Shown piece after piece: positions 2,232-55,578 of a DNA stretch of 64,000 nucleotides. The stretch lies in assembly GCA_003612585.1 (NCBI GenBank), contig RAZH01000001.1:310001-374000 (forward strand), read 5' to 3'. The notes under the pieces are model-generated. The model was not told the origin of the DNA. It was given only the letters and a program-made list of their open reading frames with translations, and searched no databases. The stretch is from a bacterium 1XD42-54. Its GTDB lineage: Bacteria; Bacillota; Clostridia; Lachnospirales; Lachnospiraceae. Each line of letters opens with the position of its first letter. Positions within the stretch are counted from its first letter, which is position 1. Both the position numbers and the translations under genes were made by a program.

Positions 2232-2318
2232 AAAAAAGAAAGGATCTGATCCCTACACCATTTCGGCTGATCACACCCGACAACTTTGACAGCTCATTCT
2301 GACCAAGGAGGAGGAACT

Positions 2319-30742: not shown

Positions 30743-30790
30743 GCTCGTTTCCTCCACCCGAAAAATTAGTACACCCTGTACCAAACGGAA

Positions 30791-30837
30791 AAAGAGCGCA
30801 GACATCTCTGCTATTTCTCCTGACATCTCCGCTCTTT
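30791..30837 (-). terminator. Terminator-like hairpin downstream of the 30842 gene
   Basis: AAAGAGCG / CGCTCTTT arms, followed by TTTTT on the minus strand. Confidence 0.5.
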
Positions 30838-30841
30838 ATGC

Positions 30842-31516: not shown

Positions 31517-31534
31517 TTTGTTATTCCTCTTATT

Positions 31535-34500: not shown

Positions 34501-36199
34501 CGCCGGAATTGTTATTGCCATGTGTGACATCCAAAACACGGCTGGCGCATTTCGGCTTTAAATAATACTCGCCGTTCCACCGCCCGTAAATATACCACTT
34601 CTGTCCGTCCCCGCCGTTATAGTCCCATACCTGGACGTTCGTTCCATCTGCATTCCTTCCGTTGTCCACATCCAGAACCTTCCCGTCCTTCACGCTCCGT
34701 ATCACGTACGAGCCGTCGCCCTGCCGTTCCAGCTTCCACAGCTCTTCGTTCGTTCCCGTATTGTAGCCAAGCGCGACATTGCCATTATCATTCGAAAGCG
34801 GGTGCCAGTTTTTCTTAATCAATATCTGTACGTATTTACTGTCCCCGATATCTACCGGCTGTCCGTCACTGATCGTAAAGCTGAAGTTGTTTTCACTTTT
34901 GGCAAGTGAATAGCCATTTTTATAATCTACATACCCTTCATAATATCCTGCCGGAAGGTTTATTTCACAAGACGTCTCCCTGAGCCCCTCCAGTATCTTA
35001 TATGGTTCGCCTTCCCAGACTTTTCCTTTCCAGATTTTCACATCATAACAATCCGCATTGGTATTGTCCCACCATATGGAAGTCGGCGTATAAGTGCTTC
35101 CAGCTGCAACACATGCATGGCCAGATTTGACGGCATCTTTTCCCCAGATAGAAAATTTCTGTGCTGAACCGCCATGCCTTTCCCACATCTGGACATTCGT
35201 TCCGTCTTCAGATGAATCCCCGCTTACGTCAAGTACGTTAGAACTGCAGGCTGCCCGAAATTCGTATGCGCCTGATTCTCCTGTAATATACCAGCGCTGG
35301 TTATTGGCCCCACTATACTCATACAATGAGACGTTGGTTCCCTTCTCAGTGCCGCCCATTTCTACATCCATACACCGGCCATCCTGGGCTGTAATCTTAT
35401 AGCTTCCATCACCCTGCCGCTCAAAATGCCAAACTTTACTGTCTGCATCTCCGCTGGATATGGAAATGTTATTTCCGGAAAGATCCGGCGTTACATGTTT
35501 CCAGGATTTGGTGTTGATTATGTATGCGTAGAAGTTGTCTCCGAGGTTGACGTAAGGCTGAACCGATGTTTGAACTGATTCAATTATATAAAAAGTATTT
35601 CTTACACCTATTGAAGTCAACTGAGATTCTGTTTTCCACGCATAGCCTTTTGAAGTACCTCTATTTGATGAAGGGAAGGAATCCAATAACAGATATTCAT
35701 CATTTGAACTTTTATAATCGACAATACACATAATATGACCTGGTTTGCTGCATATCGCTACTGCACCCTTAATCAAATAATCTTTTAATTTTGAATATCC
35801 CACAACTGTTTCTGCATATTTTATTCCATAACTATCACCCTTTTTATCTGCAAAATTTTTGTATAAACCATATGCTGTCCCACTTCCATTTACCCGATAC
35901 CCATTATTAACTGAATAATCTGCCAACATCTTAGGCTCTATAAAAGAATCGTTTAAGTAGTAAACTGCATTTGTATATGATAATATTCCACATCCTGCTT
36001 CCCCGATCGTTGTCTTTTGAGTACCGGCTGCATCTTTATAACCATACGAATGAGAAGACCACCTACTATCTTTTTGTTTATATACAGTTATATCGCTTGC
36101 ATATACGATTTTAAAATTAGAACCAACAATCATCAAAAGAGCTATTACTATTACAGCATTCCAAATCCCTAATCTACCAATAAATTTTTTTATGTTCAT
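31535..36199 (-). CDS. Secreted multidomain protein: C39-like cysteine peptidase, three ricin-type lectin modules, Ig-like/Cys-rich repeats, C-terminal LRR_5
   Basis: Signal peptide; GEAGCGILSYTNAVYY (Cys), KPGHIMCIVDY (His); three QRW/QKW ricin-like blocks; TCTETGIKTYTC repeats; C-terminal BspA-type LRRs. Confidence 0.8.
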   Translation of the reverse strand: MNIKKFIGRLGIWNAVIVIALLMIVGSNFKIVYASDITVYKQKDSRWSSHSYGYKDAAGTQKTTIGEAGCGILSYTNAVYYLNDSFIEPKMLADYSVNNGYRVNGSGTAYGLYKNFADKKGDSYGIKYAETVVGYSKLKDYLIKGAVAICSKPGHIMCIVDYKSSNDEYLLLDSFPSSNRGTSKGYAWKTESQLTSIGVRNTFYIIESVQTSVQPYVNLGDNFYAYIINTKSWKHVTPDLSGNNISISSGDADSKVWHFERQGDGSYKITAQDGRCMDVEMGGTEKGTNVSLYEYSGANNQRWYITGESGAYEFRAACSSNVLDVSGDSSEDGTNVQMWERHGGSAQKFSIWGKDAVKSGHACVAAGSTYTPTSIWWDNTNADCYDVKIWKGKVWEGEPYKILEGLRETSCEINLPAGYYEGYVDYKNGYSLAKSENNFSFTISDGQPVDIGDSKYVQILIKKNWHPLSNDNGNVALGYNTGTNEELWKLERQGDGSYVIRSVKDGKVLDVDNGRNADGTNVQVWDYNGGDGQKWYIYGRWNGEYYLKPKCASRVLDVTHGNNNSGDNVALYGLNYSDAQRFEFWGYPVPGKSELTCSPGTSYSKTSFEWSATSDTKDYNLRIYKGKCQEGENVKSLWGLTGTKCSVSLPAGEYEAYIDSSCDYTCTKSNVVKFTVREDTASTPVNLGTGFLAKIYTTDSRSPIGYENGRINGHVQESDALSQVWRFERQSDGSYVIYSAEGKGVITAQAQGDTPVQVAGYSGSELQKWFIYGNSTDGYTVESSGNGRVFDVLGGDNAAKGSLGTFRLQYSSNQLFDIEKTGDVVIGTPTVTVEEVPEQEAGNVRIHWTGAQNATSYDILIYDEAGTEIKQRIQDLEGAPYLMKLAAGKYQICVQAKNAATGGKRNSAAVSLTAKESLALCTMELDKTAYSYDGTAKKPRVTLKDSRGQVLSQSSYTVSYENNINAGSATVKAEGRGYYTGTQSIHFSIQKIPQLIGLGLDSLTVEDTETVTLGVSGYGKLSYASDLPAVAEVDAKGQLTAKKAGSVKITVTAAGDTNHDPATGVFSIRVIHHYNKGKVTKAAACEEAGVKTFTCEGCGDCYTESIPALGHTWSTGETVKETTCQEPGEIQFRCTACGKTETEQVESVGHIGESELRDSKEATCTEDGYSGDIYCKACGQVVESGNIIPKTGHKWDTGVITKASTCTETGIKTYTCTIDGTTMQEELPALGHAGITEVKNVKQATCKEPGYTGDVCCGICGAVLQEGSVTGVLPHTWDAGTTLYPAEVGKKGVIVYSCTVCQEEKIETTAVLPAQSESEPKPEPDPQKPSAEETGSRNWYVGLVIKDKKSGGVYRVNKDLETVTYVKPINAKTSKVVIPKSIQAENHVCKVTGIGKKAFQSNKSLVSVTIGDFVQSIEANAFYGCKKLTKVSGGKRVAAIGDNAFYGCSRLKSISLSSVLHTIGKKAFGKCTALTKITLPGNVKMVKAQAFYGCKSLKSILIKTKHLGKKQVGSKAFSGTAKRIVVKVPKKQLNAYKKLLRGSGISAKAVYKKY

Positions 36200-39638: not shown

Positions 39639-40616
39639 CTACCTTTGCACATAATAAATCATCTTATTCCCATCAAAGTCTATTTCCATACTCAGCCTTC
39701 CGTTACCTGTCACTATTTCTTGTGGCAGCGTACAGCCAAACATATAATATCCTTCACACAGTGATTCTATTTCTCTCAGCCCTTTTTGTTCGGCTTCTGA
39801 AACATCCATAGCAATTACTGCATTTTCATTTTCAGAATCTGTTTCGTATTGAAATGCCCAACCCTGATATCCGTACTTTTCATCAGATTTCATCTTTACT
39901 GAAAAATCGTTCAGATACTTTTTCTTAGACGTGGTTGTATTTAATACCCTTATCTTCAAAATGGCATAGTCCGCATCATCCCCTGACATTTGTATCTTAT
40001 TCATACCATCATATAAATGCTGAAATGTATCTGCAAATTCAAATGAAAGTACCGTCAACTCACCAAATCCATCAATTTCAACCGTATCTCCAATCTTCAG
40101 ATCACCCACAGCGGTTGCGTCGGCCTCTGCTTTTTCATTCTGATGCAGGACAGCGTCAAAATTCTGCACATCACCTTTCATGCCCTCCGTACTGCTATTC
40201 ATTTCAATGTATTGGTATATCGGATCATAAGAATATCCTGTTTCGTCTAATCTGTATCCGTCTGCTGCTATTTGCATTTCTACCTTGCTCAAAAACTCTG
40301 CATTCGTCTTTTCAAAACTGTTGAAGACTCTGTCGCTGAATTCTTCCGGCTTTATTATTCCTATGTACCAGCTTTGTTCATCGAAATATTTCTGCAGTTC
40401 CTGAGACTGAAAGAGCCGGCCGCGTCTTGCGTATATTTCATTCTTGGCGTAATTAATCACCTGCAGGGACATACCGGCAACATCCTCATTATTTAAGTAT
40501 CTGCTGTCTGAATCAGGAATAATATAAAGTTCTGAATCAGCAGTTGCTCCCAGCCCTAGTATCAAAAAACAAACCACAGCCCAAAACCATCCTAACATTA
40601 TTTTTCTTAATGCCAT
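39639..40616 (-). CDS. Secreted YARHG-domain protein
   Basis: Signal peptide; YAKNEIYARRGRLFQSQELQKYFDEQSWY (YARHG); C-terminal domain similar to ORF 42249-42824. Confidence 0.65.
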   Translation of the reverse strand: MALRKIMLGWFWAVVCFLILGLGATADSELYIIPDSDSRYLNNEDVAGMSLQVINYAKNEIYARRGRLFQSQELQKYFDEQSWYIGIIKPEEFSDRVFNSFEKTNAEFLSKVEMQIAADGYRLDETGYSYDPIYQYIEMNSSTEGMKGDVQNFDAVLHQNEKAEADATAVGDLKIGDTVEIDGFGELTVLSFEFADTFQHLYDGMNKIQMSGDDADYAILKIRVLNTTTSKKKYLNDFSVKMKSDEKYGYQGWAFQYETDSENENAVIAMDVSEAEQKGLREIESLCEGYYMFGCTLPQEIVTGNGRLSMEIDFDGNKMIYYVQR

Positions 40617-40769: not shown

Positions 40770-42161
40770 TCAAAATTCCCACTCGCAAATATATCCTTTT
40801 ACCTTGTGTTCTTCGTTTTTCGTATCATCCCATAACCCGGAATTGTATATCTCTAAACATGACCCGTTTCCATTAGGTTCTCCCGAATCCCAATTGCTGT
40901 ATTCCATGCTTTCTCCCGTAATCCACCTCCAATTCTCGTTTTTATATCCACCCAGCCAGTATTGTTTATACTCACCTTCATTTTCCAGACATTCACTGAT
41001 AATCTGCTGCTCTTCCTCGGAAGTAATAGTTGCCAAATGGCCGCCCATTTGTTCACAATATTCTTTTGCTTCATCCCATCTATAATAATATCTATCCGGT
41101 TCCACAATATTAACAACCATATAAAAATGATTTTCCCAAGGTACTATATTTACTGCCGTTTCAGCTGCATATTTATCAATTTGATTTACAGAATTTTCTG
41201 ACTTATAAGGAAAAACATTACCCAGAAGCATCCAATAATTTATACCGCCATCTATATTGTTAATATCAAATGGCTCGCTCCAGGTATCATCAAGCAAACT
41301 AATTTCCATTGTCAACGTATCTTTTTCTGCTGTACTTACAATCAAAGGAACATGATATACTAACTGTCCCTGAATCACCTCAAGGGTATCCAACTGTTCT
41401 TGGGGCAATATAACCTGTGCCTCAAACCCATATGTGTCCATATATGTCAACATTGAATATAAGGAATCTTTTATATCTCTTTTCGAATTTCCCCAGTTGA
41501 TCAACGAAATTTCCTGGACAATCCACTTATATTTTTCATCTTCTTCTCCGTTCCATTTATCCAGCATAGCTGCAGAACCCAGGCTGAATTCTAGCTCATC
41601 ACTATTGCGCGACACATAATCAAAAGGCATCTCTGTCTCTTTAAATGTCTGTCCGGCAACCGTTTCCAATTTAACCTTCTCATCATAACCTTCATTTAAA
41701 ACTCTCATTTCCACTCTTAATTCGTCTTCCTTTGCCATTGCCACAATATTCGGAACAGTAAATGTAATCGTCCCGTTTAAATTAATCAACATTCCTATCC
41801 GGGTTTCATCTGCGAAATCTATCTTTGCATCATATTCATATACATCCTGATAATACAGCCTTGCCCCGATCACATCACTAATCTGATATTCTTCTGTTGC
41901 CCAGTTCATCAGACTAACATTAAGCACAATATTGCTGTACACTTCATTTATACAATTTATACTATACTCATTTACAGAAAGGACCAAACCTTCTTGTTTT
42001 ATGTTAGTCTTAGTAGAATTTTCACCATCTGGAGTCAAAATAACCACTCCTTCCAGTCCGTCAAACTCTTTTCCTGATATACCTATGGGTAACAGCAGTA
42101 TAAAAATCATACTGGCAAACAACCCTTTTATTTGCTTCATTGTATTTCCCCTCTTTCCCAC
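40770..42161 (-). CDS. Secreted protein with C-terminal C-type-lectin-like domain
   Basis: YYRWDEAKEYCEQMGGHLATITSEEEQQII...YWLGGYKNENWRWITGESMEYSNWDSGEPNGNGSCLEIYNSGLWDD...GYICEWEF. Confidence 0.8.
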   Translation of the reverse strand: MGKRGNTMKQIKGLFASMIFILLLPIGISGKEFDGLEGVVILTPDGENSTKTNIKQEGLVLSVNEYSINCINEVYSNIVLNVSLMNWATEEYQISDVIGARLYYQDVYEYDAKIDFADETRIGMLINLNGTITFTVPNIVAMAKEDELRVEMRVLNEGYDEKVKLETVAGQTFKETEMPFDYVSRNSDELEFSLGSAAMLDKWNGEEDEKYKWIVQEISLINWGNSKRDIKDSLYSMLTYMDTYGFEAQVILPQEQLDTLEVIQGQLVYHVPLIVSTAEKDTLTMEISLLDDTWSEPFDINNIDGGINYWMLLGNVFPYKSENSVNQIDKYAAETAVNIVPWENHFYMVVNIVEPDRYYYRWDEAKEYCEQMGGHLATITSEEEQQIISECLENEGEYKQYWLGGYKNENWRWITGESMEYSNWDSGEPNGNGSCLEIYNSGLWDDTKNEEHKVKGYICEWEF

Positions 42162-42248: not shown

Positions 42249-42824
42249 TTATTTCCGTACATTATAAGTAATCTCATTTCCGTCAAAATTAATTTCCATA
42301 CGCAATGGTGCTTTCCCTTCTACTACTGCATTTGGCACTGTACACCCAAACATGTAATATCCTACATATAAAGGATCAATTGTTCCTGTATCTTCTGAAA
42401 CCCTCATTGCGTAATAATCTTCATCATCTCCTTCACACTGAAGGGCCCACCCCTGATACTCATATTTATCGTCATATATCATTTTTACCTCAAAGTCATT
42501 CAAATACCTTTTTGCACTTGTATTTGTATTTAACATCTTTATTTTTAATATTGCAAAATCCGCCTGGTCACCTGTCCTTTTCCAGCCATCACTTTTCATA
42601 TAAAACTCATCTTTAAACTCAAACAAAAGTGCTGTCAGATCTCCAAAGCCTTCAATCTCAACAAAATCGCCCACTTTCAAATCCTCCAATGTTACACTTT
42701 CAGCCGCATCTTCTTCTCCCACCGGAGTCAACGCAACCACACCCAAATCCTGCTCCGCCGCATAGGCCGTTCCCCCTAACATCATTGATGCAACAAGTAT
42801 TCCTGCAAAAATCTTTTTCTTCAT
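42249..42824 (-). CDS. Secreted paralogue of the C-terminal domain of ORF 39639-40616
   Basis: Shared DLKxGDxVEIxGFGxLTxLxFEF, ADxAILKIxxLNTxTSxKxYLNDFxVKM, YMFGCT, MEIxFDGNxxxYxV. Confidence 0.7.
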   Translation of the reverse strand: MKKKIFAGILVASMMLGGTAYAAEQDLGVVALTPVGEEDAAESVTLEDLKVGDFVEIEGFGDLTALLFEFKDEFYMKSDGWKRTGDQADFAILKIKMLNTNTSAKRYLNDFEVKMIYDDKYEYQGWALQCEGDDEDYYAMRVSEDTGTIDPLYVGYYMFGCTVPNAVVEGKAPLRMEINFDGNEITYNVRK

Positions 42825-42900: not shown

Positions 42901-43050
42901 ACTGTGGATTGGTTTTCTAATCCTACCACACAGATGGTTTAATGGAGGCTCCAACCACAGTCTCTTTGTATATTTGTTAATCAGTTAGATACCGCATGAC
43001 GGTTTATTTAGAACGAGGTTACAATCGCAAGGAGTACCTGTGGTTCTAAA
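42901..43050 (+). ncRNA. Candidate IS110 bridge RNA (two hairpins with internal loops in the 5' non-coding end)
   Basis: Hairpin 1: ACTGTGG-A-TTGG (42901-42912) pairs with CCAACCACAGT (42951-42961). Hairpin 2: TTTAGAAC (43007-43014) pairs with GTTCTAAA (43043-43050), with inner AGGT/ACCT pairing. Confidence 0.5.
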
Positions 43051-43081
43051 CAGTATCAATACTTTTCAAAGGAGATTTCTT

Positions 43082-44260
43082 ATGATTTACGTTGGAATTG
43101 ATGTCGCAAAAGATAAGCACGACTGCTTTATCACTAACTCGGATGGAGAAGTGTTGTCTAAATCATTTACCATCTCAAACAACCGCAAAGGATTTGACAC
43201 TCTGTTTCAGAAAATCATATCTGTATCAAATGATCTGTCCAAAGTAAAAGTAGGACTGGAAGCCACCGGACACTACAGTTACAATCTTCTGGGATTCCTT
43301 CTTGATAAAGGTTTGCCGACCTACGTTATCAATCCGTTACATACCAATCTTTACAGAAAAAGCCTAAGCCTTAGAAAGACCAAAACGGATCAAGTTGATT
43401 CCCGTACCATTGCCACTATGATGATGTCTGACATGAACTTAAAGTCCTACTCAGACACATCTTACCACAATGAGGAATTAAAGTCACTCTCTCGTTATCG
43501 TTTTGATAAAGTAAAAGAACGGGCAAAACTGAAGATTTCTGTTTCAAGGCTTGTGTGCATTCTTTTTCCAGAACTGGAAAAACTCGTTCCCACACTCCAT
43601 ATGGCTTCCATCTACGATTTGCTTTCCGAATTTCCAAGTGCTGACGCTGTCGCAGCCGCACACCTTACAAGGCTTTCCAATCTGCTGTCTGAAAGTTCTA
43701 AAGGCAGATATGGAAAAGATACTGCTGTCATGTTTCGTGAAGCTGCAAGAAGTTCTATCGGTTCTCATATGCCTGCTAAGTCCCTGGAACTGAAGCACAC
43801 CATCAAACTCATTCATGAATTAACGATCGAGATTGACGAAATCGAAACAGCCATCAAACGAATCATGGATGAAGAAGTCCAGTCTCCAATCCTTACCATT
43901 CCCGGTATCAGTTACCGGATGGGTGCAATGATCATCGCCGAGATTGGGGATTTCAGCCGTTTTGATTCCGCCGATAAGATACTTGCATATGCAGGAATGT
44001 CCCCATCCACCTATCAATCAGGTCAATTAGATAACTGTCATTCCCACATGGAGAAACGGGGTTCCAGATACCTTCGGTATGCCCTTTACAACGCCACGAA
44101 GTATGTCTGCCATTGGGATGAATCCTTCGGAACCTATCTTGAGAAGAAACGCTCCGAAGGCAAGCATTATAATGTTGCATTATCTCATGCCACAAAAAAG
44201 CTTGTGCGGCTGATTTTCGCAATGGAAAAATCAAGACGGGCATACATACCAGTTCCTTAA
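43082..44260 (+). mobile_element. IS110-family transposase (DEDD + Transposase_20)
   Basis: MIYVGIDVAKDKHDCF, VGLEATGHYS, KTDQVDSRTIA; C-terminal LTIPGISYRMGAMIIAEIGDFSRF...AYAGMSPSTYQSG. Element ends not determined. Confidence 0.93.
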
Positions 44261-44495: not shown

Positions 44496-45635
44496 TCAGC
44501 TCCCTTTCTGTTCTCTTTCCCACCTCCTCAGCCTATCAATATCCTGGCTCTGTACAGACGAATGTACAGATTGCAAAGCTTCGGTAAAATCTCCCTCCAC
44601 AATGCAACTTGTACTTCCGGACTGCACTGAACGTCCAATGGCTAAGTCTTTCACAAAACCACAGAATGCCACGATATCTGCCGCATTATAGCCATCTGTC
44701 CTTCTTGCCCAATTCCCAAGTTCCACCTGTGTATCACAGGGAACCCCCTGGAAGGCTTTCGTCATTAAATAAAGCCTTGCCTCATAATCCGGCAGCCCTA
44801 CATAAATCTTTTCTGTTAATCTGGGAGGGCGCAGGAATGCACTGTCAAGGTCCCATGGGCGGTTGGTCGCGCCAAGTACCAGAATATTATTCTTTGTTGC
44901 CTCGCTAAACCCATCCATTTGGCTGAGTAATTCCGGAACCAGGCGGTTCATAACAGAGGAATCACTTCCCCGCTTTGAAGCCAAAGCTTCAAATTCATCA
45001 AAAAATACCACCGCCGCGTCGCATGCCCTGGCTGCTTCAAACAGGCTTTTTACATTCTTTTCTGCTTCCCCAAAATATTTTCCAACAATATCTGAACAGC
45101 GCACCGAAAAAAAATCGGCATCCACTTCATTCGCAATTGCTTTTGCAACCATGGTTTTTCCTGTTCCCGGCGGGCCATAGAGAAGAATCCCCCCGCCCAC
45201 TTCCCGATGGAACAGCTCATATAGCTCTGGATGCTGCCTTGGCATGACGACCCTTTTTTGAATACTCTCTTTTACTTCATAGAGTCCGGCAATATCCTCA
45301 AATCTTACGTTTGTTTTTCCGAAACTTCTCCAGATCGTTGTATTTTCATCAGAATTTCTGTTTCCCTCAGCTCCTCCATTTAAATTGGGGGTAGCTTTTC
45401 TTTCTGCATAGATCTTCTCCGGAAGCACTATCTTATCTGCCAAACATTGTAATTTATCCGACCTCCGGATAAGCGCAGCCTTTGTTTCCCCGTCCGTTTC
45501 CCGCGCAGATTTCAGCAAGGCCTCGCTTGCCAGAAGATACATATGCTTTGCTTCTTCTAACCGCCCTTCCTCTTCTGCCCGAACCGCTTTTTGATAATAT
45601 TCCTCAAACATCCGGTAAAATATATCCGAACTCAT
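44496..45635 (-). CDS. Vps4/katanin-like AAA+ ATPase with N-terminal MIT-like helical domain
   Basis: MIT-like YYQKAVRAEEEGRLEEAKHMYLLASEALLKSA; FEDIAGLYEVKESIQKRV; Walker A GPPGTGKT; pore loop GKYFGEAEKNVKSLF; Walker B VVFFDEFEAL; ILVLGATNRPWDLDSAFLRP. Confidence 0.85.
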   Translation of the reverse strand: MSSDIFYRMFEEYYQKAVRAEEEGRLEEAKHMYLLASEALLKSARETDGETKAALIRRSDKLQCLADKIVLPEKIYAERKATPNLNGGAEGNRNSDENTTIWRSFGKTNVRFEDIAGLYEVKESIQKRVVMPRQHPELYELFHREVGGGILLYGPPGTGKTMVAKAIANEVDADFFSVRCSDIVGKYFGEAEKNVKSLFEAARACDAAVVFFDEFEALASKRGSDSSVMNRLVPELLSQMDGFSEATKNNILVLGATNRPWDLDSAFLRPPRLTEKIYVGLPDYEARLYLMTKAFQGVPCDTQVELGNWARRTDGYNAADIVAFCGFVKDLAIGRSVQSGSTSCIVEGDFTEALQSVHSSVQSQDIDRLRRWEREQKGS

Positions 45636-45640
45636 TTTCT

Positions 45641-46225
45641 CTACTCCTTCAGTGCCGAGCGCTTCTTTTCACTTTCTGCCAGCCTACGGTCAATTTCCTC
45701 ATCCAGGACACTGATCTTCGCTGCCCCTGTCGCATCTATCATATTTTCAATTTCTTTATCAATATCTGCCTCAGTTCCTGCTTCAAATGCCATTCCGGAA
45801 CCCTCCAGAAAACCTTCCAGTTGTTCCATTGCCGTTTCTGCTGAAAGCATCCCTTTTTCAAAATCCATCTGGTTTTTCAAAAATTGAGTTGCTTTCGTTA
45901 CCTTACTGACTTCTTTCCCTACGTTTCCCATTAATTTAACAAATTGAGAACTCATAGTAGTCAAATCCCTCATTGATTCTGTCATTTCTATTTGGAGAAT
46001 CATCGCCTTGCAACGTTTCTGATAGGCATATACCATCTTTAAACCACTCACAGCTACGCCATACTGCTGCATAATTCCCTGTTTTTTAGCCTCCTGCGCA
46101 TAAGAAATCAACTCATCTTTCTTCTTTTCAAGGGAACGGTCACATTTTTTCAACTCATTAATTCCCTGCCGGATGGCGAGTTTCGCTTCCATTGCTTTTT
46201 CTGCTTTGGACTTAAATAATTTCAT
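45641..46225 (-). CDS. ESCRT-III/Snf7 (CHMP2-like) protein with MIM1-like C-terminus
   Basis: Basic N-terminus, long helical core (INELKKCDRSLEKKKDELISYAQEAKKQG...SMRDLTTMSSQFVKLMGNVGKEVSKV), acidic linker, terminal EEIDRRLAESEKK resembling MIM1 (LxxRLxxL[KR]). Confidence 0.65.
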   Translation of the reverse strand: MKLFKSKAEKAMEAKLAIRQGINELKKCDRSLEKKKDELISYAQEAKKQGIMQQYGVAVSGLKMVYAYQKRCKAMILQIEMTESMRDLTTMSSQFVKLMGNVGKEVSKVTKATQFLKNQMDFEKGMLSAETAMEQLEGFLEGSGMAFEAGTEADIDKEIENMIDATGAAKISVLDEEIDRRLAESEKKRSALKE

Positions 46226-47181
46226 GCCAGCTCCCCTTTCCCATTCCGTGTTTCCCTGTCATTCCCCTGTTTATCTGTATCTCCTAAAATGGGAACCTCT
46301 TCCTGTGCCGTTTCTGCCCTCTCTGTTTTTATTTCTTTCTTTCGCAGCTGTACCAGCTCATCAAATTCCTGCGTATGTGAATATCCTTTCACTTCTGAAG
46401 ATGCCTGAATTCTGTTTTCATATCTTTCAATGCCCTTTTCCATCTCTGCCGTATTCTCTGACAATTCTCCTGTTTCTTCCGCAATCCATTCCATCATAGC
46501 TTCGGACCGGCTGATATCCGGAACAAAAGACTTAAGTTCAAAGGTTGTTCTTCCAGTCTGAAGCATTGCATGATACCTGGAACTGTTTTCTAGGGCCTTT
46601 GCATAGAGCTTAAGCTGCTGTTCAAGCGCCCGTATCTGTGGGAGTAATGCTACTGCCTGTTGTCTGATCTGCTTATACTCATTACTATCCGGAGATATGG
46701 CAGCACACTTTGCAGCTTTTTCTTCAACCTGTTTTGTAACAGCAGACAGGTTATCATAAAGATCCCCGATTCTTTTTTGGATTTCAAAAATCTTCTGTTC
46801 CGCTGCTGCTTCCTCCCTCTGAAACAAAACTTCCTGTCCCCTGTCTTTGTCCCATGGCAGTTTACTTTTTACCTTTTCCAATAATCCCATCTTTTTTCTG
46901 CTCCCTGCTTCTTTAATCACGGACTGATTTAATTCATCCACACGTCCCAGACAGATCTGTGCAGCATGATATCTCCTATCTTTCAACGCAGATAATGCTT
47001 CTTCCAACAAAACGATCTTTTCTTCTGCCAGAACAACAGGCGTATCCATAATTGTAAAATTGCGGTACAACGTCCTGCACAGTTTTTCTGTTGCTGCATC
47101 GTTTCCCAGATCCTCACATTCCTGCAAAACATGTAACAACCATCTTTTTTGTTCCGCCGCTTTTCTCTTTTTTCCTGCCAT
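46222..47181 (-). CDS. Coiled-coil protein, probable second Snf7/ESCRT-III-like subunit with N-terminal extension
   Basis: Helical pattern IQALEQQL-like (QIRALEQQLKLYAKALENSSRY) followed by VPDISRSEAMMEWIAEETGELSENTAEM. ATGA overlap with the next gene. Confidence 0.5.
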   Translation of the reverse strand: MAGKKRKAAEQKRWLLHVLQECEDLGNDAATEKLCRTLYRNFTIMDTPVVLAEEKIVLLEEALSALKDRRYHAAQICLGRVDELNQSVIKEAGSRKKMGLLEKVKSKLPWDKDRGQEVLFQREEAAAEQKIFEIQKRIGDLYDNLSAVTKQVEEKAAKCAAISPDSNEYKQIRQQAVALLPQIRALEQQLKLYAKALENSSRYHAMLQTGRTTFELKSFVPDISRSEAMMEWIAEETGELSENTAEMEKGIERYENRIQASSEVKGYSHTQEFDELVQLRKKEIKTERAETAQEEVPILGDTDKQGNDRETRNGKGELA

Positions 47182-47187
47182 AATCCC

Positions 47188-47880
47188 TTATTTCTTTAAG
47201 GCCCTGCATTTCTGGTTCCGTTCAGCCAGGAGGCGCTGTAATCTGTCAATCCTTACAGAAATCTTTTCATTCTCTCCTTCCTCTGCTTCTTCACGCAAAA
47301 GAGTAATATTATGCCGGATACGTTCTTCCAGATCGGCAAGTGCAGTTTGTCCCAAGGGATCACTATACCGCAACAGATCTCTGAGTGTACTTAACTTCTC
47401 CCGCAACTGTGTTTCTGCGACAAACGTCTCTATCGTATCTATTTCTGCTACTAAGAGCTGCTGGTCCATCACCTTTCGTCCGTCTATATCATCCTGTCCC
47501 TGCACACTGCTTGTCCCGGCGCGGAACACTAAAACAATTACCACATAAACACTCAGCAAAAGCAATCCCACCAACCCTGCTGTTTTCGTCGATAAATCAG
47601 GTATTGCCATTGCTGCAATCCCGCCAAGAATAAACTGTACACAAAAATAAATACACGAAAGCCCTGAGGCCGCCAAATCAAACATTGGGTATGCCTTTTC
47701 TGACCCGCTCTGGAAACAGACGCCTGCCAGTAAAACCAAAAAAGCCACCATCGTGTATCCATAGGCAATCCAGGAAGCTAAATTAAAATTTTTCTTAAAA
47801 GCAAACAAAAGAATGCTGTAAATTACAGCAGCAAATACTATGGCAAACCCTTTCCATACACCTGAATAATTTCTTTTCAT
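47188..47880 (-). CDS. Multi-TM protein with cytoplasmic coiled-coil tail
   Basis: About four hydrophobic segments in residues 1-120, then a charged helical tail. Confidence 0.6.
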   Translation of the reverse strand: MKRNYSGVWKGFAIVFAAVIYSILLFAFKKNFNLASWIAYGYTMVAFLVLLAGVCFQSGSEKAYPMFDLAASGLSCIYFCVQFILGGIAAMAIPDLSTKTAGLVGLLLLSVYVVIVLVFRAGTSSVQGQDDIDGRKVMDQQLLVAEIDTIETFVAETQLREKLSTLRDLLRYSDPLGQTALADLEERIRHNITLLREEAEEGENEKISVRIDRLQRLLAERNQKCRALKK

Positions 47881-47890
47881 CCCAATTCTC

Positions 47891-49123
47891 CTACAGGCTA
47901 TTCAATATTTCTTTCCGTTTTTCACGGTACTCATCTTCTGTAATCAATCCGTTTTCAAACCAATCCTTTAGATCCTCTAACCGTGCTTTGCGGTCTGCGG
48001 CTGTCCCAGTGCTTCCCGGCATCTCTGCTGCAAATGGATGGATTGCCGTTTTTACAATGTCACTTGCTGTTCCGGCTGGCGATTGTGGTATTCTGACTAC
48101 CGGATTATAAAAAGGCGTCCCTGCCAGTGTTCCCATGGCAGCCGTATTCGGCCCGGGATTCCCTGCCAGTATTTCTGCTACTGAAAATGCCTTTCTCTGG
48201 ACTTCAGTAATTCCCTTCGCCTGGTTGATCTGGGCCTCTGTCAGCCCCTGCCCAAGAAGCACTGCATTCTTCGCTTTCCCTTCTTCCTGTATACGCCTTG
48301 TATCTACATCAATTTTCAGTTTCTCTATATTGGCTTTTCCGGTTTCAAGTATCGTATCAATCTTTACGCCCTTTAATGCTTCCTGAATCTCTTCCAGTCC
48401 ATAAACTTTCACGGCGCTGACTGCAAAATGGTTCAGCTCCAGGCCATATGCAAGGAAAACATCGGAAAGCAATGTTTTAATCTCTCTTGACAGATAAATC
48501 AGTTGGGTATTCACATGCAGTGCCCCAATCTGTTTTCCTTCCATCACGTTTGCAATACAATCCCGGATGTGGGCCGCCATTATTTCCGAAAAATATGCCC
48601 TGATGTTTTCCTGGGTGTAGCTTTTAACGGTTCCTACTAATTTAATCAGAAATTTGCGTCCATCTTTTACCCGCAGGGAAAAATCGCCATAGGAAGTCAG
48701 TTTTACCGGGAGTCTGTATTCCGCATCCAGCATCTCTATCGGAGAATCTGTTCCCCATGGTATGCCCATTGAAATGGCTTTGTTTATATAGTAAACCTCG
48801 CAATGGAATGGACAGATACCGCCCATAGATAATCCTACTATATTCCGCAGTATCGGAATATTCTGCGTCTCCAAGGTATATCGGCCTCCCGGGAAAGTAT
48901 CCAAAGCCTGCCCATTCCGGAAAAAAATTGCTTCCTGGGATTCATGGACAATCAGCTGGGATTTCGTATTAAAATCCTCACAAGGATGCTTCCAGACAAA
49001 TACATCCTGCGGTCCTTCATATTTTATTACGTCTAATATAGGATTTTTTTTACCAAACAATACATATTCCTCCCTGAATGAATCAAATGCATTTGTAATA
49101 CAGTCCAGCCCGTCACTCCGCAA
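47891..49123 (-). CDS. SPFH-domain (YdjI/virion-core-like) protein with C-terminal SHOCT domain
   Basis: VWKHPCEDFNTKSQLIVHESQEAIFFRNGQALDTFPGGRYTLETQNIPIL typical of YdjI-type SPFH; C-terminal RLEDLKDWFENGLITEDEYREKRKEIL (SHOCT). Confidence 0.85.
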   Translation of the reverse strand: MRSDGLDCITNAFDSFREEYVLFGKKNPILDVIKYEGPQDVFVWKHPCEDFNTKSQLIVHESQEAIFFRNGQALDTFPGGRYTLETQNIPILRNIVGLSMGGICPFHCEVYYINKAISMGIPWGTDSPIEMLDAEYRLPVKLTSYGDFSLRVKDGRKFLIKLVGTVKSYTQENIRAYFSEIMAAHIRDCIANVMEGKQIGALHVNTQLIYLSREIKTLLSDVFLAYGLELNHFAVSAVKVYGLEEIQEALKGVKIDTILETGKANIEKLKIDVDTRRIQEEGKAKNAVLLGQGLTEAQINQAKGITEVQRKAFSVAEILAGNPGPNTAAMGTLAGTPFYNPVVRIPQSPAGTASDIVKTAIHPFAAEMPGSTGTAADRKARLEDLKDWFENGLITEDEYREKRKEILNSL

Positions 49124-52100
49124 TATTTTCTAATCCTACCGTATACACCGCGCCGATCCGGTTGCCTGCTTTTACCCTTAAATAGTATTCTCCGGCCGGT
49201 ATCTGTAATTTCTGCCTGAGTCCCCCGCTCTCCCCTTTTACATTTACCGACCATTGGGACTTCCCGTTCTGCTCTAACTGCAAAGCAAAAGCCGTCTTAC
49301 TGCTTGCCGTCTGCTCAAACTGGAATGACAATGTAACCATTGTGTCCTCTGAAAACGATACCCTGTACCAGTCTATATCTTCCTGTGTTGACAAAACCCC
49401 TGTAAGGGTCTGGCCCATGGCAAGCTCTGTAGCACGGGCTAAGGTATCGTTTGGCTCCGCTTCTGCTGCATCTATCTGCATTGCTGCCACAGTTAAGCTA
49501 TAGTCCTGATGAATAAATTGCGGATTTTCCAGCTTAATTGTATATGTTCCGGCTTTCAACGCGATTGGGGCAATTACTTTCCCAGATTCCTTCCCCCCAA
49601 TATTTATTGTAAAAAGGCTGTCTGTCTCTCCCAGTACTGTCAAAACATAGGTTTTTGAGGAACTTTCTAATGGTGCAAAGGCCAATTTCGGCTGGATAAC
49701 CATATCCTGATCCAGTGTGAGGCTGTAACAGTCCACATCTCCTTCAATCCCGAAAGAACCGCTTACTGCAGTATTGAGGGATATTTGTGTCGCCGTATCT
49801 GGTGTATCATTGCTTTCCTGTTCAATTGCTTCCGCCTTCTGATACTCAACAGTAAGTCCATAATCCCAGGAAGACCACTCTTTTCCCGGGCTAACCTGAA
49901 CCATATACTGGCCTTCACTTAAATACACCTTTCCCATTGATGCAGTTTTAACATTCCCCAACATCTGATTTTGGGATAATAATCTTCCATTTATCAGATT
50001 AAAAAGCTTCACTTCATATCTGGATTTTTTTGAGTCGATATCATCCGCCTGTAAAACTACATCTACGGCTCCCGGGGCATCCAGCCTGAACACAAAACAA
50101 TCCACGTCATTCTTCTGGAACAGGCTTGCCCTGTATTCCTGGTTTACTTCAATCGCATTTGCGCTTTCCGGATTGTTGTTTTCCTCCTGCTCCACATACT
50201 GCTCCGCCTGCGCTTCCATCGTCAGCTCATACTCACAGTCTTCGTAACTTTTCGCTTCTACTTGTATGTAATACACACCTGCTTTTAAAAACAGCGGAGT
50301 CGCCATCTGCCTGGCTGGGGACAGCTTTAGTTCATATGCCGTTAATGCTTCGGATAAATCTTCTGCATCATATAGACTTACATAAAATGCCGTTCTCTTA
50401 CCCTGTTTTTCTCCTGCTTTCCAAAACATCTGAACGCGCGAAGCCTCCGGTAAGAGCATACGGTATATATGTTTGTCCTCTGAATCCTGTAATTTGTCTG
50501 TTACGGCCGCATTTAACGATAGAAGCGGCATTTCTGTGTTACTTTCCCGCTCATCCATTCCCGGTGCAAAGGCATCTGAAAATCCTACAATTTTCCATCC
50601 ACTGTCATAAATTACTGCCGCATAAATTTTGCATTCTTTGCCCTCTGATTGATACCTGACTTCTTCCAGTACAATCCCTGCTTCTGTATAATATGCACTG
50701 CTTTCTACTTCATAAGGGGCTTCCGGCATGTCCTCCGGCACATCAAACCCAAAGCCAAGTTTTCCGTATAGAGCTTCAGCCTGAAGCAGTCCTGCCTCTT
50801 CTTCAATCCCATATCCCTTTGCCTCAAAAAAACGTTGGATTGTCTCTTCCGGAGTCTCTGGGTATGGATATTGGTCTTCCTGCCAGTCTATTTCTACAAC
50901 TGTGGGCGGAACAGATAACGCGTCCAGCGAATATTCATAACATGTATTTCTTTCAATAGAACCATTCAGCGGTTTTCCAAACGTGATTTTTTTGCCGTCC
51001 CTTTTATAATTAGTAAGCCCCTCCATTCCTATTAACTTCTGGATTTTCCCATCGCCATAGGAATAGCTTGCAAAAGAACAGCTGGCCTCTGCCTCTAACA
51101 AAAAATCATGACTCACTAATTCGATTGCCGGTCTTTGCAAATCAGTTTCTGTATTCCATACCTGCTTAAATTCCGCTTCAAAGGCATATATTTCAAGAAC
51201 GCCTTCTTCCGTAACTGCCAGCAATTCTTCCCGCCCATCCTGGTTCCAGTCAATAAACTCGTAATCTGAAAGCATCGTCTCTTCCGATGCAACCTTTAAC
51301 GCAGCGCTATGATAAACACCTTCCGTATCGCCATCTTCTATACCTATCTCTTTCGCATATTCTATGAGCACAAAAACATCCTGCGGATCTATTTTCAACC
51401 GCTCCCATTCCTGAAGGCTTTTTATTAATTCTTCTTTCAGTTTTTGCTTCTGTACCCCCTGTTTTTCAATATCTGTCTCCGATATTTCTACAGCAAGTTT
51501 CCTTAAATCAATACGCGTCTTACATAAGTCAAGTACTTCTGCCGTATCCTCCAATATTCCATAAATATCGGCCCCATAATTATATGCTTCTTTAAATTCT
51601 TCTACACAATATGGATCTTTATGAGAGGCTAAGTCTTTCGCATACTCTAAATGAATCTCTGCTGTTTTTAATTTATAATCCTCTGACAATCCATGTCTCT
51701 CTATAGCCTTGGAATATACGTCGGCAAATGCCGCCCACTCTTGCAATCCATCTGCTTTATCTGCTTCTGCATAACATTTCCGAATTTCCATATCATACAA
51801 AAATTGAAATGCTTCATCCTCGCCAATTAAATCATAAGCATATTTCGCATCGGTAAGCGCAGCTTCATAATCTTTTTCCGCTTCTTCCTCTGATGCACGT
51901 TTTTGATAAATATTTCCCAGTTTTTTCGCACAATCAACCGTAGAAGCAGCTTTATATGCTGCCTGGTAAAGAACCAATGCTTCATCGGCATCTTTCCCCA
52001 AAATTCGATCTCCAAACTGTACCAGGCAATCCGCCATTGCATTTTCGTTAATCACTACTTTCTCATTCGTTTCCAAATTCATTCGATAAACAGTTACTAT

Positions 52101-52841
52101 TTGCTCCGGTTGCAGAACGACCAATTCCGCTTCACCATCTTCATCCATATCTTTCACATACCAGTCAAGTGCGTCTTCGTTAAGCATATGGACATGTGCT
52201 TCTATAGAAAGCGTTTCTGTATCTAATAAATTATCTTTATCTAATGTTTTTACTTTAGGCAACAAAAGAAGTAAGCCTTCCGGTGTGATTTCATGTGCTT
52301 TCCAGTCAGCCACTGCTAAAATAACTGACTCCTTTAATTTCTCATACGCTTCATCCTCCGACTGCCCTATCTGGTCGATTTTTTCTATAGCAACGTTTAT
52401 ATTATTATCCGCTAAGGCAAGAAATGCTTCGCAAAGCATTACGTTCTCCTCACTATTCCTATAGTTTATCCCTGAGAACCGTTCTAATGCTTCACCATAC
52501 ACGCCCTGTCTCAAAAGCTTTACTGCGTCATTATATTCTTGTTCTGGCAATATACGAAACCAGAGAATCGCTGCTGCAGCTGCCATCCCCACGAGTAAAA
52601 CAGCTGTCGCTTTAAGAGTTCTTGCTTTTCTTTTCTTACTCTTCTCTGCGGCTCTTTTTCGTTGCTCCAGTTCTTTTATCTCATCTTTATATTTTTGATT
52701 CAGTTCATTTGCTTCACTCTGGGCACTGGCATCATAAGGAAACCATTTTTCATGATAGGCACAAAAACCTGCCTTCCCACTTGCAGATATTTTTTCAAAT
52801 GGCCGACCACACTGCGGGCATTCCCGGAATTTATCGAACAT
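49113..52841 (-). CDS. Zinc-ribbon / TM / TPR-like / pre-peptidase C-terminal (PPC) repeat giant membrane protein
   Basis: CPQCGRPF...CAYHEKWF; TM TAVLLVGMAAAAAILWF; helical repeat region; three PPC-like repeats beginning EENNNPESANAI, EQESNDTPDTATQI and EAEPNDTLARATEL. Confidence 0.75.
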   Translation of the reverse strand: MFDKFRECPQCGRPFEKISASGKAGFCAYHEKWFPYDASAQSEANELNQKYKDEIKELEQRKRAAEKSKKRKARTLKATAVLLVGMAAAAAILWFRILPEQEYNDAVKLLRQGVYGEALERFSGINYRNSEENVMLCEAFLALADNNINVAIEKIDQIGQSEDEAYEKLKESVILAVADWKAHEITPEGLLLLLPKVKTLDKDNLLDTETLSIEAHVHMLNEDALDWYVKDMDEDGEAELVVLQPEQIVTVYRMNLETNEKVVINENAMADCLVQFGDRILGKDADEALVLYQAAYKAASTVDCAKKLGNIYQKRASEEEAEKDYEAALTDAKYAYDLIGEDEAFQFLYDMEIRKCYAEADKADGLQEWAAFADVYSKAIERHGLSEDYKLKTAEIHLEYAKDLASHKDPYCVEEFKEAYNYGADIYGILEDTAEVLDLCKTRIDLRKLAVEISETDIEKQGVQKQKLKEELIKSLQEWERLKIDPQDVFVLIEYAKEIGIEDGDTEGVYHSAALKVASEETMLSDYEFIDWNQDGREELLAVTEEGVLEIYAFEAEFKQVWNTETDLQRPAIELVSHDFLLEAEASCSFASYSYGDGKIQKLIGMEGLTNYKRDGKKITFGKPLNGSIERNTCYEYSLDALSVPPTVVEIDWQEDQYPYPETPEETIQRFFEAKGYGIEEEAGLLQAEALYGKLGFGFDVPEDMPEAPYEVESSAYYTEAGIVLEEVRYQSEGKECKIYAAVIYDSGWKIVGFSDAFAPGMDERESNTEMPLLSLNAAVTDKLQDSEDKHIYRMLLPEASRVQMFWKAGEKQGKRTAFYVSLYDAEDLSEALTAYELKLSPARQMATPLFLKAGVYYIQVEAKSYEDCEYELTMEAQAEQYVEQEENNNPESANAIEVNQEYRASLFQKNDVDCFVFRLDAPGAVDVVLQADDIDSKKSRYEVKLFNLINGRLLSQNQMLGNVKTASMGKVYLSEGQYMVQVSPGKEWSSWDYGLTVEYQKAEAIEQESNDTPDTATQISLNTAVSGSFGIEGDVDCYSLTLDQDMVIQPKLAFAPLESSSKTYVLTVLGETDSLFTINIGGKESGKVIAPIALKAGTYTIKLENPQFIHQDYSLTVAAMQIDAAEAEPNDTLARATELAMGQTLTGVLSTQEDIDWYRVSFSEDTMVTLSFQFEQTASSKTAFALQLEQNGKSQWSVNVKGESGGLRQKLQIPAGEYYLRVKAGNRIGAVYTVGLENIAE

Positions 52842-52887: not shown

Positions 52888-52911
52888 AATCAAAAGGTGT
52901 ACCTTTTGATT
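52888..52911. repeat. Palindromic recombination/operator site L: AATCAAAAGGT-GT-ACCTTTTGATT
   Basis: 11-bp arms around a 2-bp GT core. The inner 20-mer (52890-52909) is the exact reverse complement of the 20-mer at 53028-53047. Confidence 0.85.
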
Positions 52912-52978
52912 CATGTTTCATTCCCAGTTATATTTGTCAAAATTTCATAAATTCCAAACTACACAATTGTGAAATCCA

Positions 52979-53007
52979 TTGATTTCCATATGATTTTGTG
53001 CTAAAAT
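52979..53007 (+). promoter_or_regulatory. Promoter-like TTGATT-N17-TAAAAT with extended -10 (TGC), pointing away from the ESCRT-like operon
   Basis: -35 at 52979-52984, 17-nt spacer, TGC-TAAAAT at 52999-53007. It lies between the two inverted sites. Confidence 0.4.
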
Positions 53008-53018
53008 AAGGCTTAGAA

Positions 53019-53665
<647 letters not shown>

Positions 53666-53969: not shown

Positions 53970-54601
53970 GTCCTTTGGTATCTTCGGTCTGGAAGTCTAT
54001 ACCTTCTCAGTTGGCAAAAGAGAACAAAAAATTCATTTACAAGGTTGTCAAAGAAGGGGCCAGAGCCCGTGAATATGAGAACGCTCTACAGTGGCTGGTA
54101 GATGCCTGACTGGTGCATAAAATCTATCGCAGCTTCACTCCTGGCCTTCCTGTAGCCGCTTATGATAACCTGTCAGCTTTTAAGATTTATCTGGTAGATG
54201 TGGGTTTGCTCCGCCGCCTGGCGCAGTTAACGCCCACCGCCTTCGGTGAGGGCAATCGCCTGTTCACCGAATTCAAAGGCACATTGACTGAGAACTTTGT
54301 ACTTCAAACCCTGGTTACTCAGTTTGAAGTGACTCCCCGCTACCGGACACAGACCAATCCTCCGTACGAGGTGGATTTCCTGATCCAGCGGGAGAATGAT
54401 ATTTTTCCTGTTGAAGTCAAATCCGAATCTAATACATCCAGCAAGAGCCTTAAGAAGTTCAAGGAACTGTTCCCTGATAAGGCAAAGCTCCGTGTACGCT
54501 TCTCCCTGGGCAATCTGAAACTGGAGGATGATGTGCTGAATATCCCGCTGTTCATGTCTGATCAAACAGATCGACTAATTGGCTTGGCATTAGAACAGTG
54601 A
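53970..54601 (+). pseudogene. ATP-binding protein/DUF4143 C-terminal fragment with in-frame TGA
   Basis: VWKSIPSQLAKENKKFIYKVVKEGARAREYENALQWLVDA*LVHKIYRSFTPGLPVAAYDNLSAFKIYLVDVGLL...YEVDFLIQ...PVEVKS. TGA at 54107-54109; the N-terminal AAA part is missing. Confidence 0.75.
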
Positions 54602-54765
54602 CAGACGAAGCTTTAACAAAAACAAGGCATTGTATCATTCGGCAATCACAACAGGGAGCTTGTTTTCAATATGCTCTTTTCCTCATGGGTGCGGTCAAGA
54701 TGGAAGGCCGTGTCGTTAGAGAAATGATGGGCTTGTAAAGGAGGACGCAATGGAGCGGTGGAAAC

Positions 54766-55164
54766 TTATAGCTCCACCCCTTCAATATCCAGAAATTGCG
54801 CTACGGTCATGCACTTGGGATGTTCCATATTTAGACTAAGGAAATCCTTGTCACCCGTCAGTATGATGTCAATGCCATAGAGGATGGCGGCATTTAGGAT
54901 AGGCTGGTCCTTTGCATCCCGTATCAACTTTTGTGCGTGGGGAGCAGCGGGGATTAAATCGTAAGAAAGCTCCGTCAGTAATACTTCCGCATCGGGCAGA
55001 GCCTGCGGTGTTTTCCTGTTAAGAACTTCCCGAAATTCCGTCAGATTCTGGTCACACAAGACCATTTCATGGTTTTCTGCGGTATATACTAATGCTTTCG
55101 CAGGTTTTGACCGTGGGAACAGTACGGCGGAAATCAGAATGTTGGTATCTACAAGTATCTTCAT
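54766..55164 (-). CDS. PIN-domain toxin
   Basis: MKILVDTNILISAVLFPRSKPAKAL...DAKDQPILNAAILYGIDIILTGDKDFL. Confidence 0.85.
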   Translation of the reverse strand: MKILVDTNILISAVLFPRSKPAKALVYTAENHEMVLCDQNLTEFREVLNRKTPQALPDAEVLLTELSYDLIPAAPHAQKLIRDAKDQPILNAAILYGIDIILTGDKDFLSLNMEHPKCMTVAQFLDIEGVEL

Positions 55165-55421
55165 TCTTTTCCCTTTCCGTAGCGCACTTCGTCAACCAAA
55201 GCCTGTACGTCATCCTCGTTATACACGCCCATCTGCTCGGCAACGCCCTCGAATGCTTTCTGGGCTTTATAAATTGCTTGTGCGGAAGCGTTGTTGATGA
55301 CGACCTCGCCGCTTGGTTTCTGGAAGAACAGTATCTTGTCGCCAGATTTCAGACCGAGCAGACGGCGTATCTCGGCAGGCACGGTAATCTGCCCATTGGC
55401 AGAGATTTTTGCTAAGTTCAT
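55161..55421 (-). CDS. AbrB/MazE-family antitoxin
   Basis: AKISANGQITVPAEIRRLLGLKSGDKILFF; 4-nt overlap with the PIN toxin. Confidence 0.85.
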   Translation of the reverse strand: MNLAKISANGQITVPAEIRRLLGLKSGDKILFFQKPSGEVVINNASAQAIYKAQKAFEGVAEQMGVYNEDDVQALVDEVRYGKGKE

Positions 55422-55578
55422 ATAAACCATCCTTTCTTATGGCTGTACCGCCTGGCACAGTCGAATATACAGAATTCTTGAAATCTAAAGAATACTTTAG
55501 ACTTCTACCTCTATTATATCCCAAAACCAGAGAAAGTAAATGGATTTCAAAAAGATTTTCAACCGAATATCAAATATT

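Follow-up and report, generated by a model that had tools for sequence, protein, structure and literature searches.

The window, a 64,000-nucleotide (nt) stretch of the genome of bacterium 1XD42-54 (Lachnospiraceae; GenBank assembly GCA_003612585.1, contig RAZH01000001.1, positions 310,001 to 374,000 of the forward strand), carries six genes packed head to tail on the minus strand at 44496-52841, the last two of which encode a candidate filament protein resembling ESCRT-III (endosomal sorting complex required for transport III) and an ATPase with the domain architecture of Vps4. The host genome is 3.7 Mb and nearly complete, and the window sits on a 718-kb contig; GC content is 0.43 in the operon, 0.41 in the stretch to its left and 0.49-0.51 in the far flanks. 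An open reading frame check of the window confirmed the gene coordinates and the tight packing proposed in a preliminary description made from the sequence alone: counted upward from the ATPase end the junctions are +5, -4, +6, +10 and -11 nt, the last hinging on whether the SPFH gene starts at its listed TTG, the next possible start lying 63 nt further in. Transcription runs from a giant membrane protein to an SPFH-SHOCT protein, a 230-amino-acid (aa) transmembrane coiled-coil protein (TMcc), a 319-aa coiled coil (CC3), a 194-aa protein that we call the filament protein, and the MIT-AAA ATPase (Table 1).

Pfam searches and hydropathy bear out the earlier assignments of the first three products. 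The giant has an N-terminal zinc ribbon, CPQC...CAYH (CxxC...CxxH), at residues 8-30 and one transmembrane (TM) segment at 75-100 by hydropathy, and its Pfam PPC match is weak. Full-length relatives of it occur in comparison loci L027 (31% identity), L032 and L034, and other zinc-ribbon giants stand in its place in L040 and L041, which belong to another taxonomic order. The SPFH protein matches Band_7_1 (9.9e-40) and SHOCT (1.8e-5) and has relatives in other loci. TMcc, possibly a membrane anchor, has relatives in L027 and L030, and versions with one TM segment occur in L040 and L041.

The two cytosolic coiled-coil proteins had both been described as Snf7-like, which proved apt for the filament protein. 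Searched alone, it gives a weak Pfam Snf7 match (E 0.038) that is co-linear over the full length, with residues 13-170 aligned to model positions 1-157. Across filament family members Snf7 is the commonest Pfam family, found in 10 of 34 with a best E of 8.2e-7; the runner-up family was matched by 3 members. As a calibration, Sulfolobus acidocaldarius, although a Cdv organism, has no protein that passes the cut-off of the Snf7 model, so weak Snf7 scores are to be expected of genuine distant members. Profile A6 retrieves human CHMP3 as the best of 177,635 PDB sequences (E 7.5e-5) in a co-linear and nearly gap-free alignment, and profile A13 places CHMP2A at the top of its PDB matches (E 8.1e-4).

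The predicted fold points the same way. The AlphaFold2 (AF2) model of the filament protein has helices at residues 7-49, 52-108, 112-142, 152-163 and 173-193, a long hairpin followed by C-terminal helices in the ESCRT-III order. The three highest-ranked Foldseek matches to this model are CHMP2A (probability 1.00), CHMP3 and Asgard ESCRT-IIIB; Vipp1, CHMP1B/IST1, CdvB, Shrub and Snf7 follow at lower ranks amid de novo designed bundles. An N-terminal half that is basic and a C-terminal half that is acidic are a known trait of ESCRT-III proteins, and in the filament family the mean charge is +9.2 over the first 110 residues and -12.1 thereafter, with the same sign in 17 of 17 members measured. 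CC3 shows the same charge trend, so that this polarity is not specific to the filament protein. A relaxed MIM1 (MIT-interacting motif 1) pattern is present in 7 of 19 filament tails, compared with 0.35 in shuffled sequences, and the strict pattern in 2. Snf7 homology is thus detectable in the 194-aa protein, which we regard, on the strength of these comparisons, as a candidate ESCRT-III-like filament subunit.

For CC3 the Snf7 assignment was not upheld. Its hhalign probability as a second Snf7 protein is 0.3%, and the assignment finds no support in a profile search of the PDB or in structure comparison: the AF2 model (predicted local distance difference test, pLDDT, 69) has no ESCRT protein among its best Foldseek matches, which are designed repeats and coiled coils of axonemes, Vipp1 appearing no higher than ranks 43 and 47. 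The filament protein retrieves ESCRT-III folds whereas its coiled-coil neighbor does not, and because the same pipeline applied to a protein of the same operon yields no ESCRT pattern, CC3 serves as an internal negative control. CC3 is 28% identical to its counterpart in L027. Short relatives of it are found in 18 of the 27 filament-positive genomes described below, most of them immediately upstream of the filament gene, and in none of the 18 filament-negative genomes examined. At G1186:C3:158796-159619 a CC3 gene lies 60 nt upstream of a MIT gene and nothing between the two matches the filament family, an arrangement that keeps the idea of CC3 as a second Snf7-type protein alive and hints that CC3 may itself be the client of an MIT-ATPase. 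CC3 is possibly a second filament subunit.

The MIT-AAA architecture attributed to the last gene product was corroborated. As a whole the ATPase matches Pfam AAA at 2.2e-39, MIT at 4.7e-4 and Vps4_C at 0.0012; with its first 80 aa alone, MIT is the sole Pfam match and improves to 3.2e-5, the best family member reaching 9.6e-7. MIT precedes AAA in all six loci, and invariant among them are GPPGTGKT (Walker A), FFDE (Walker B; FIDE in the other order), an ATN sensor and R269/R272. The NCBIfam CdvC model gives 206 bits (8.3e-61) over residues 8-375, the model cut-off being 650. We also considered a TPR in place of the MIT domain: designed TPRs match helices 1-2, but Pfam gives MIT only. With a better MIT profile the leading natural full-domain PDB match is chitin synthase 1 (Chs1, 2mpk), whose domain we take to be a MIT domain, followed by a Sulfolobus MIT domain. 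The protein is best called a MIT-AAA ATPase, Vps4-like in its predicted architecture.

The proposed pairing of filament and MIT-AAA motor beside an SPFH protein and a zinc-ribbon membrane protein is borne out, and seen to be conserved as a unit, by recurrence of the six-gene set in at least five other genomes, from two orders; the co-linear set is hence not a product of chance. L027/L033, L032 and L034 have the same six genes in the gene order TMcc-CC3-filament-ATPase-giant-SPFH, of which the window's is a circular permutation, and L040 and L041, from reduced genomes of the other order, have SPFH-TMcc-CC3-filament-ATPase-giant. The block TMcc-CC3-filament-ATPase is constant throughout. The filament proteins of the window and L027 share 66% identity and their ATPases 57%, compared with 26-31% for the other four proteins, so that the two core ESCRT-like proteins change slowest. 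In L034, from a metagenome-assembled genome (MAG), an A-rich run at 10001-10120 holds a frameshift that disrupts the filament gene about 38 codons in, possibly an assembly error; the analysis drew on the intact 3' part alone.

Linkage of the two core genes was surveyed most broadly in the order of L040's genome, where the filament gene occurs in 27 of 248 genomes and 18 of 115 genera. A MIT protein is encoded in 25 of the 27 filament-positive genomes and in none of the 221 negatives; homologues that lack the ATPase, which would have told against the preliminary description, are thus confined to two genomes of this order. Nor did its other refuting outcome, non-ESCRT folds for both coiled-coil proteins, come about, since one of the two retrieves ESCRT-III folds. 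Six of the 27 had supplied profile sequences, and 19 of the remaining 21 have the MIT protein. In 22 genomes the MIT gene lies within 600 nt downstream of the filament gene on the same strand, typically at 12-41 nt. The filament gene and the MIT-ATPase gene travel together.

Elsewhere the filament gene is rare. In the host's own order it was found in the host only (1 of 392 genomes), and likewise in a phylum-wide sample (1 of 300). Five weak matches to it in the host-order scan were not true relatives where inspected, L002 being an ABC-transporter gene. Single-protein searches with the filament protein of viral contigs, plasmids and phages returned no real match. Loci L034, L035 and L040 are flanked by housekeeping genes (ClpX/Lon, IscS/IscU, anaerobic ribonucleotide reductase). 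Concentration in one order together with sporadic presence in Lachnospiraceae suggests transfer.

Several loci place the MIT domain on a different motor. L036 and L037 each have two filament-type genes, each followed by a MIT domain on a different AAA module, one CbbX-like (AAA_lid_6) and one RuvB-like (RuvB_N, RuvB_C); the MIT protein of L049 has a CbbX-like AAA domain first and then a second AAA domain. In L072 (163-2064, minus strand) a filament-like N-terminus is itself fused to FtsK alpha and FtsK/SpoIIIE domains, a motor of the DNA-translocase type. Because filament and MIT are repeatedly adjacent to unrelated motors, we infer that the contact between them is the conserved functional element. 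We lean, by a narrow measure, toward the view that several Clostridia families own genuine ESCRT-III/MIT-ATPase machines at an SPFH platform, modularized with motors unknown in archaea and eukaryotes, the MIT domain sitting on Vps4-, CbbX- or RuvB-type motors and the filament fused to an FtsK-type one. The RuvB-type MIT fusions also carry a TnsA-endonuclease-like domain, and in L063 an FtsK-like gene (2093-3562) lies directly upstream of the filament gene.

The giants vary as well. Zinc-ribbon/TPR giants with TIR, some with BspA-type leucine-rich repeats (LRR), adjoin SPFH and coiled-coil genes in L054 (1-1491), L036 (31-4455) and L030 (14-3070); Pfam finds TIR_2 in all three and not in the window giant. 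The 6.5-kb contig of L030 has no filament or ATPase gene, and SPFH, TMcc and TIR giant may form a wider module. Of the loci from rabbit MAGs, L036 is flanked by a TIR-LRR giant recognized by Pfam and L037 by a secreted protein that looks LRR-like by eye.

Beyond the ATPase gene, and separated from it by an IS110-family transposase, lie three genes for secreted proteins. L032 and L034 have no transposase at that place, and secreted proteins trail the operon in both, including a C-type lectin on the same side in L032 (8.3e-13) and, by sequence, in L034; for this reason the secreted lectin/YARHG genes probably belong to the locus. The products of 42249..42824 and 40770..42161 are probable accessory proteins and the YARHG product a possible one. 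Next to these genes, at 24944-36199, are others for secreted surface proteins of very large size, with BspA-type LRR, ricin-type lectin and Big_2 domains. On the upstream side the only intergenic region contains a pair of inverted repeats adjoining a serine recombinase gene. The same repeat pair, with one mismatch, accompanies an intact recombinase at one other genomic place (L074 2424-3038, G000:C11:48263-49038), and promoter-like sites occur on both strands of the repeat region at chance frequency. The repeats are possibly recombination sites or the borders of an invertible, phase-variable promoter segment; they may also simply be part of the recombinase element or bound a small mobile unit. 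Beside the recombinase, a PIN-toxin/MazE-antitoxin pair and a DUF4143 fragment (54113-55430) mark a mobile region. An Rfam scan of the window gave no match.

Table 1 Features of the six-gene locus, its surroundings and related MIT fusions (window coordinates unless a locus is named)
Feature	Position	Strand	Remarks
Giant, 1242 aa	49113..52841	-	single-pass membrane protein; FG-GAP-like and PPC-like regions in a large predicted ectodomain
SPFH/Band-7 with C-terminal SHOCT, 410 aa	47891..49123	-	TTG start; 11-nt overlap with upstream gene
TMcc, 230 aa	47188..47880	-	four predicted TM segments, then cytosolic coiled coil (hydropathy)
CC3, 319 aa, cytosolic coiled coil	46222..47181	-	directly upstream of filament gene in every six-gene locus
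Filament candidate, ESCRT-III/Snf7-like, 194 aa	45641..46225	-	best-conserved protein of the set
MIT-AAA+ ATPase, 379 aa	44496..45635	-	MIT ~7-70, AAA ~110-340, C-terminal helix
MIT segment of ATPase	45396..45635	-	Pfam MIT 3.2e-5; in the PDB, MIT domains lead the natural full-domain matches
IS110-family transposase	43040..44260	+	Pfam IS110 2.6e-42; between operon and secreted genes
Secreted protein, 191 aa	42249..42824	-	first gene past transposase beyond ATPase; shares a stretch with the 39639-40616 protein
Secreted protein, C-terminal C-type lectin, 463 aa	40770..42161	-	Pfam Lectin_C 8.1e-18
Secreted protein with YARHG, 325 aa	39639..40616	-	Pfam YARHG 3e-21
20-bp inverted repeats TCAAAAGGTGTACCTTTTGA / TCAAAAGGTACACCTTTTGA, 118 bp apart	52890..53047	.	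only upstream intergenic region
Serine recombinase, one in-frame stop	53051..53665	-	Pfam Resolvase 1e-12; adjoins inverted repeats
MIT-like domain fused to CbbX-/RuvB-type AAA	L036 8054-9175, 10589-12916; L037 8834-9970, 10625-12772; L035 1013-3115		each adjoins a filament gene

Taken together, these comparisons make it likely that the locus encodes a bacterial membrane-remodelling system of the ESCRT-III/Vps4 type, and they partly support the overall interpretation of the preliminary description. In the scheme we propose, the giant and TMcc would tether the SPFH protein to the cytoplasmic membrane on its inner side, much as YdjG/H tether YdjI; the SPFH protein would nucleate filaments of the 45641 product, perhaps copolymerized with CC3. 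The MIT domain of the ATPase would bind the acidic C-terminal helix of the filament subunits, and the motor would thread them through its AAA pore, resulting in polymer turnover and work on the membrane. A signal from outside would be relayed by the giant's ectodomain, possibly together with the secreted lectin/YARHG proteins encoded downstream. The output is likely envelope-stress-triggered membrane repair or reshaping, SPFH-anchored and ATP-driven, with vesicle release as an alternative. Cdv-type division in place of FtsZ is ruled out, as FtsZ scores over its cut-off in 25 of 25 carriers tested, the host included. A scan of the complete host genome with PspA_IM30 (PF04012) drew no match at E 0.001, from the filament gene or elsewhere, and nine control genomes were positive. 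A host that lacks PspA, together with FtsZ in all 25 carriers, favors a stress or remodelling role over division.

Several observations weigh against reading the locus as an ESCRT-III/Vps4-type system. As a single query against the PDB, the window's filament protein returns no CHMP or ESCRT match, and the sequence scores are modest and profile-dependent: CHMP2A falls to E 0.88 with profile A9, and profile A16 gives it only 0.062, though still as best match. The AF2 model is only moderate (pLDDT 66; predicted template modelling score, pTM, 0.49), and none of its Foldseek matches has E < 0.001. The MIM1-like tail claimed in the preliminary description stands for a number of family members under the relaxed pattern; the window's own tail, DEEIDRRLAESE, is only a partial match, without the third hydrophobic and the basic residue. 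On the ATPase side the Cdc48 model scores 208 bits, about equal to CdvC, so that 'Vps4' proper is not established. Finally, the Fisher p of 2.6e-32 for filament/MIT co-occurrence is uncorrected for shared ancestry.

The near-equal Cdc48 score suits an alternative, which we consider unlikely, in which the 194-aa protein serves a Cdc48-like unfoldase as its coiled-coil adaptor or its substrate and the set carries out SPFH-scaffolded membrane-protein extraction or quality control, like HflKC around FtsH, the MIT domain merely docking the motor. SPFH proteins commonly scaffold AAA proteases, and swapping with CbbX and RuvB modules fits a generic motor. The loci contain no protease or ubiquitin-like partner, however; no other member of the set is as well conserved as the filament protein, and such conservation would be unusual for a mere adaptor; its best ESCRT-type sequence and fold matches (CHMPs, Asgard ESCRT-III and CdvB), its charge polarity and the MIM-like tail also weigh against this alternative. 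Partners of the SPFH and zinc-ribbon membrane type are also common to the pspA-ydjGHI operon of Bacillus subtilis, and the filament protein could be a derived PspA/Vipp1 in an offshoot of that operon that gained its ATPase secondarily, its likeness to CHMPs coming from the superfamily only. Vipp1 is indeed among the Foldseek matches, and PspA-AAA associations are reported in bacteria. We nevertheless hold this improbable, given that CHMPs outrank Vipp1 in both fold and sequence searches, that PspA_IM30 is never among the listed Pfam matches of family members and has none in the host, that TPM-domain YdjH was not found, and that a MIT domain and a MIM-like tail are features of ESCRT systems.

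We give very little credence to a reading of the locus as an accessory conflict or anti-phage system whose ESCRT-like parts act at the membrane. The TIR_2 giants of L054, L036 and L030, the patchy distribution (27/248 in one order and 1/392 in the host's) and the IS110, recombinase and PIN/MazE genes nearby in the window would agree with such a role. Against it, the window giant has no TIR by Pfam, L034, L035 and L040 lie among housekeeping genes, and no phage or plasmid copy turned up in the searches; PADLOC run on the six proteins reported only an AAA resemblance to IetA (7e-35), with no IetS or other effector.

If the ESCRT-III/Vps4-type reading is right, this compact bacterial operon would be a genetically simple system for ATP-driven ESCRT remodelling and for the link between ESCRT and SPFH proteins. 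It would bear on whether filament and MIT motor are an ancient pair or one acquired by transfer, and its swapped motors would make it testable which part is specific (the contact between MIT and tail) and which generic (the AAA engine).

In human cells the ESCRT machinery severs and mends membranes. The main survey of ESCRT evolution reports that ESCRT homologues are not identifiable in bacteria (Makarova et al. 2024, PMC10936438). The preliminary description knew of no well-characterized equivalent, which holds to the extent that we found, mainly in the open-access literature and with preprints outside the scope, no description of a system in Clostridia that combines MIT-AAA with SPFH and has its motors swapped; it does not hold for bacterial Snf7+AAA and Vps4-like genes as such. 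Ravi et al. 2024 (PMC11237479) describe Vps4-like ATPases transferred to bacteria, where a TPR-6TM gene has taken the place of the snf7 partner; they also note that bacteria now and then have Snf7+AAA operons, which include genes for ABC transporter and OmpA/PBPB proteins. Both are precedents for Snf7-clade or Vps4-like AAA genes in some bacteria, and the passages on them name neither an SPFH partner nor Clostridia.

Among known systems, the archaeal ESCRT/Cdv Meth_adaptin loci likewise have an ESCRT-III gene directly upstream of a MIT-AAA gene, and SPFH and zinc-ribbon partners (Makarova et al. 2024, PMC10936438). The Clostridia set differs from them in its bacterial host and in that no adaptin appendage, winged-helix (wH) or ProX genes were seen, and it extends beyond them with the TM coiled-coil protein, the giant ectodomain protein and the TIR variants. 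With B. subtilis pspA-ydjGHI, where PspA depends on YdjI and YdjG/H to reach the membrane (PMC8581546), a precedent for an SPFH protein that recruits a member of the ESCRT-III superfamily, it shares the joint encoding of an ESCRT-III-superfamily protein, an SPFH protein, a zinc-ribbon membrane protein and a membrane anchor (PMC8581546; PMC11237479); unlike that operon, it has no PspA match and no TPM-domain YdjH, and it has the dedicated MIT-AAA ATPase that pspA-ydjGHI lacks. From eukaryotic CHMP2A/CHMP3 and VPS4 it departs in that no CHMP4/CHMP6 nucleators or ESCRT-I/II were seen, that CbbX- or RuvB-type motors are possible and that the window's tail motif is incomplete. It resembles them in the best matches of the filament protein, the MIT-AAA partner, the charge polarity and, in several members, a MIM1-like tail.

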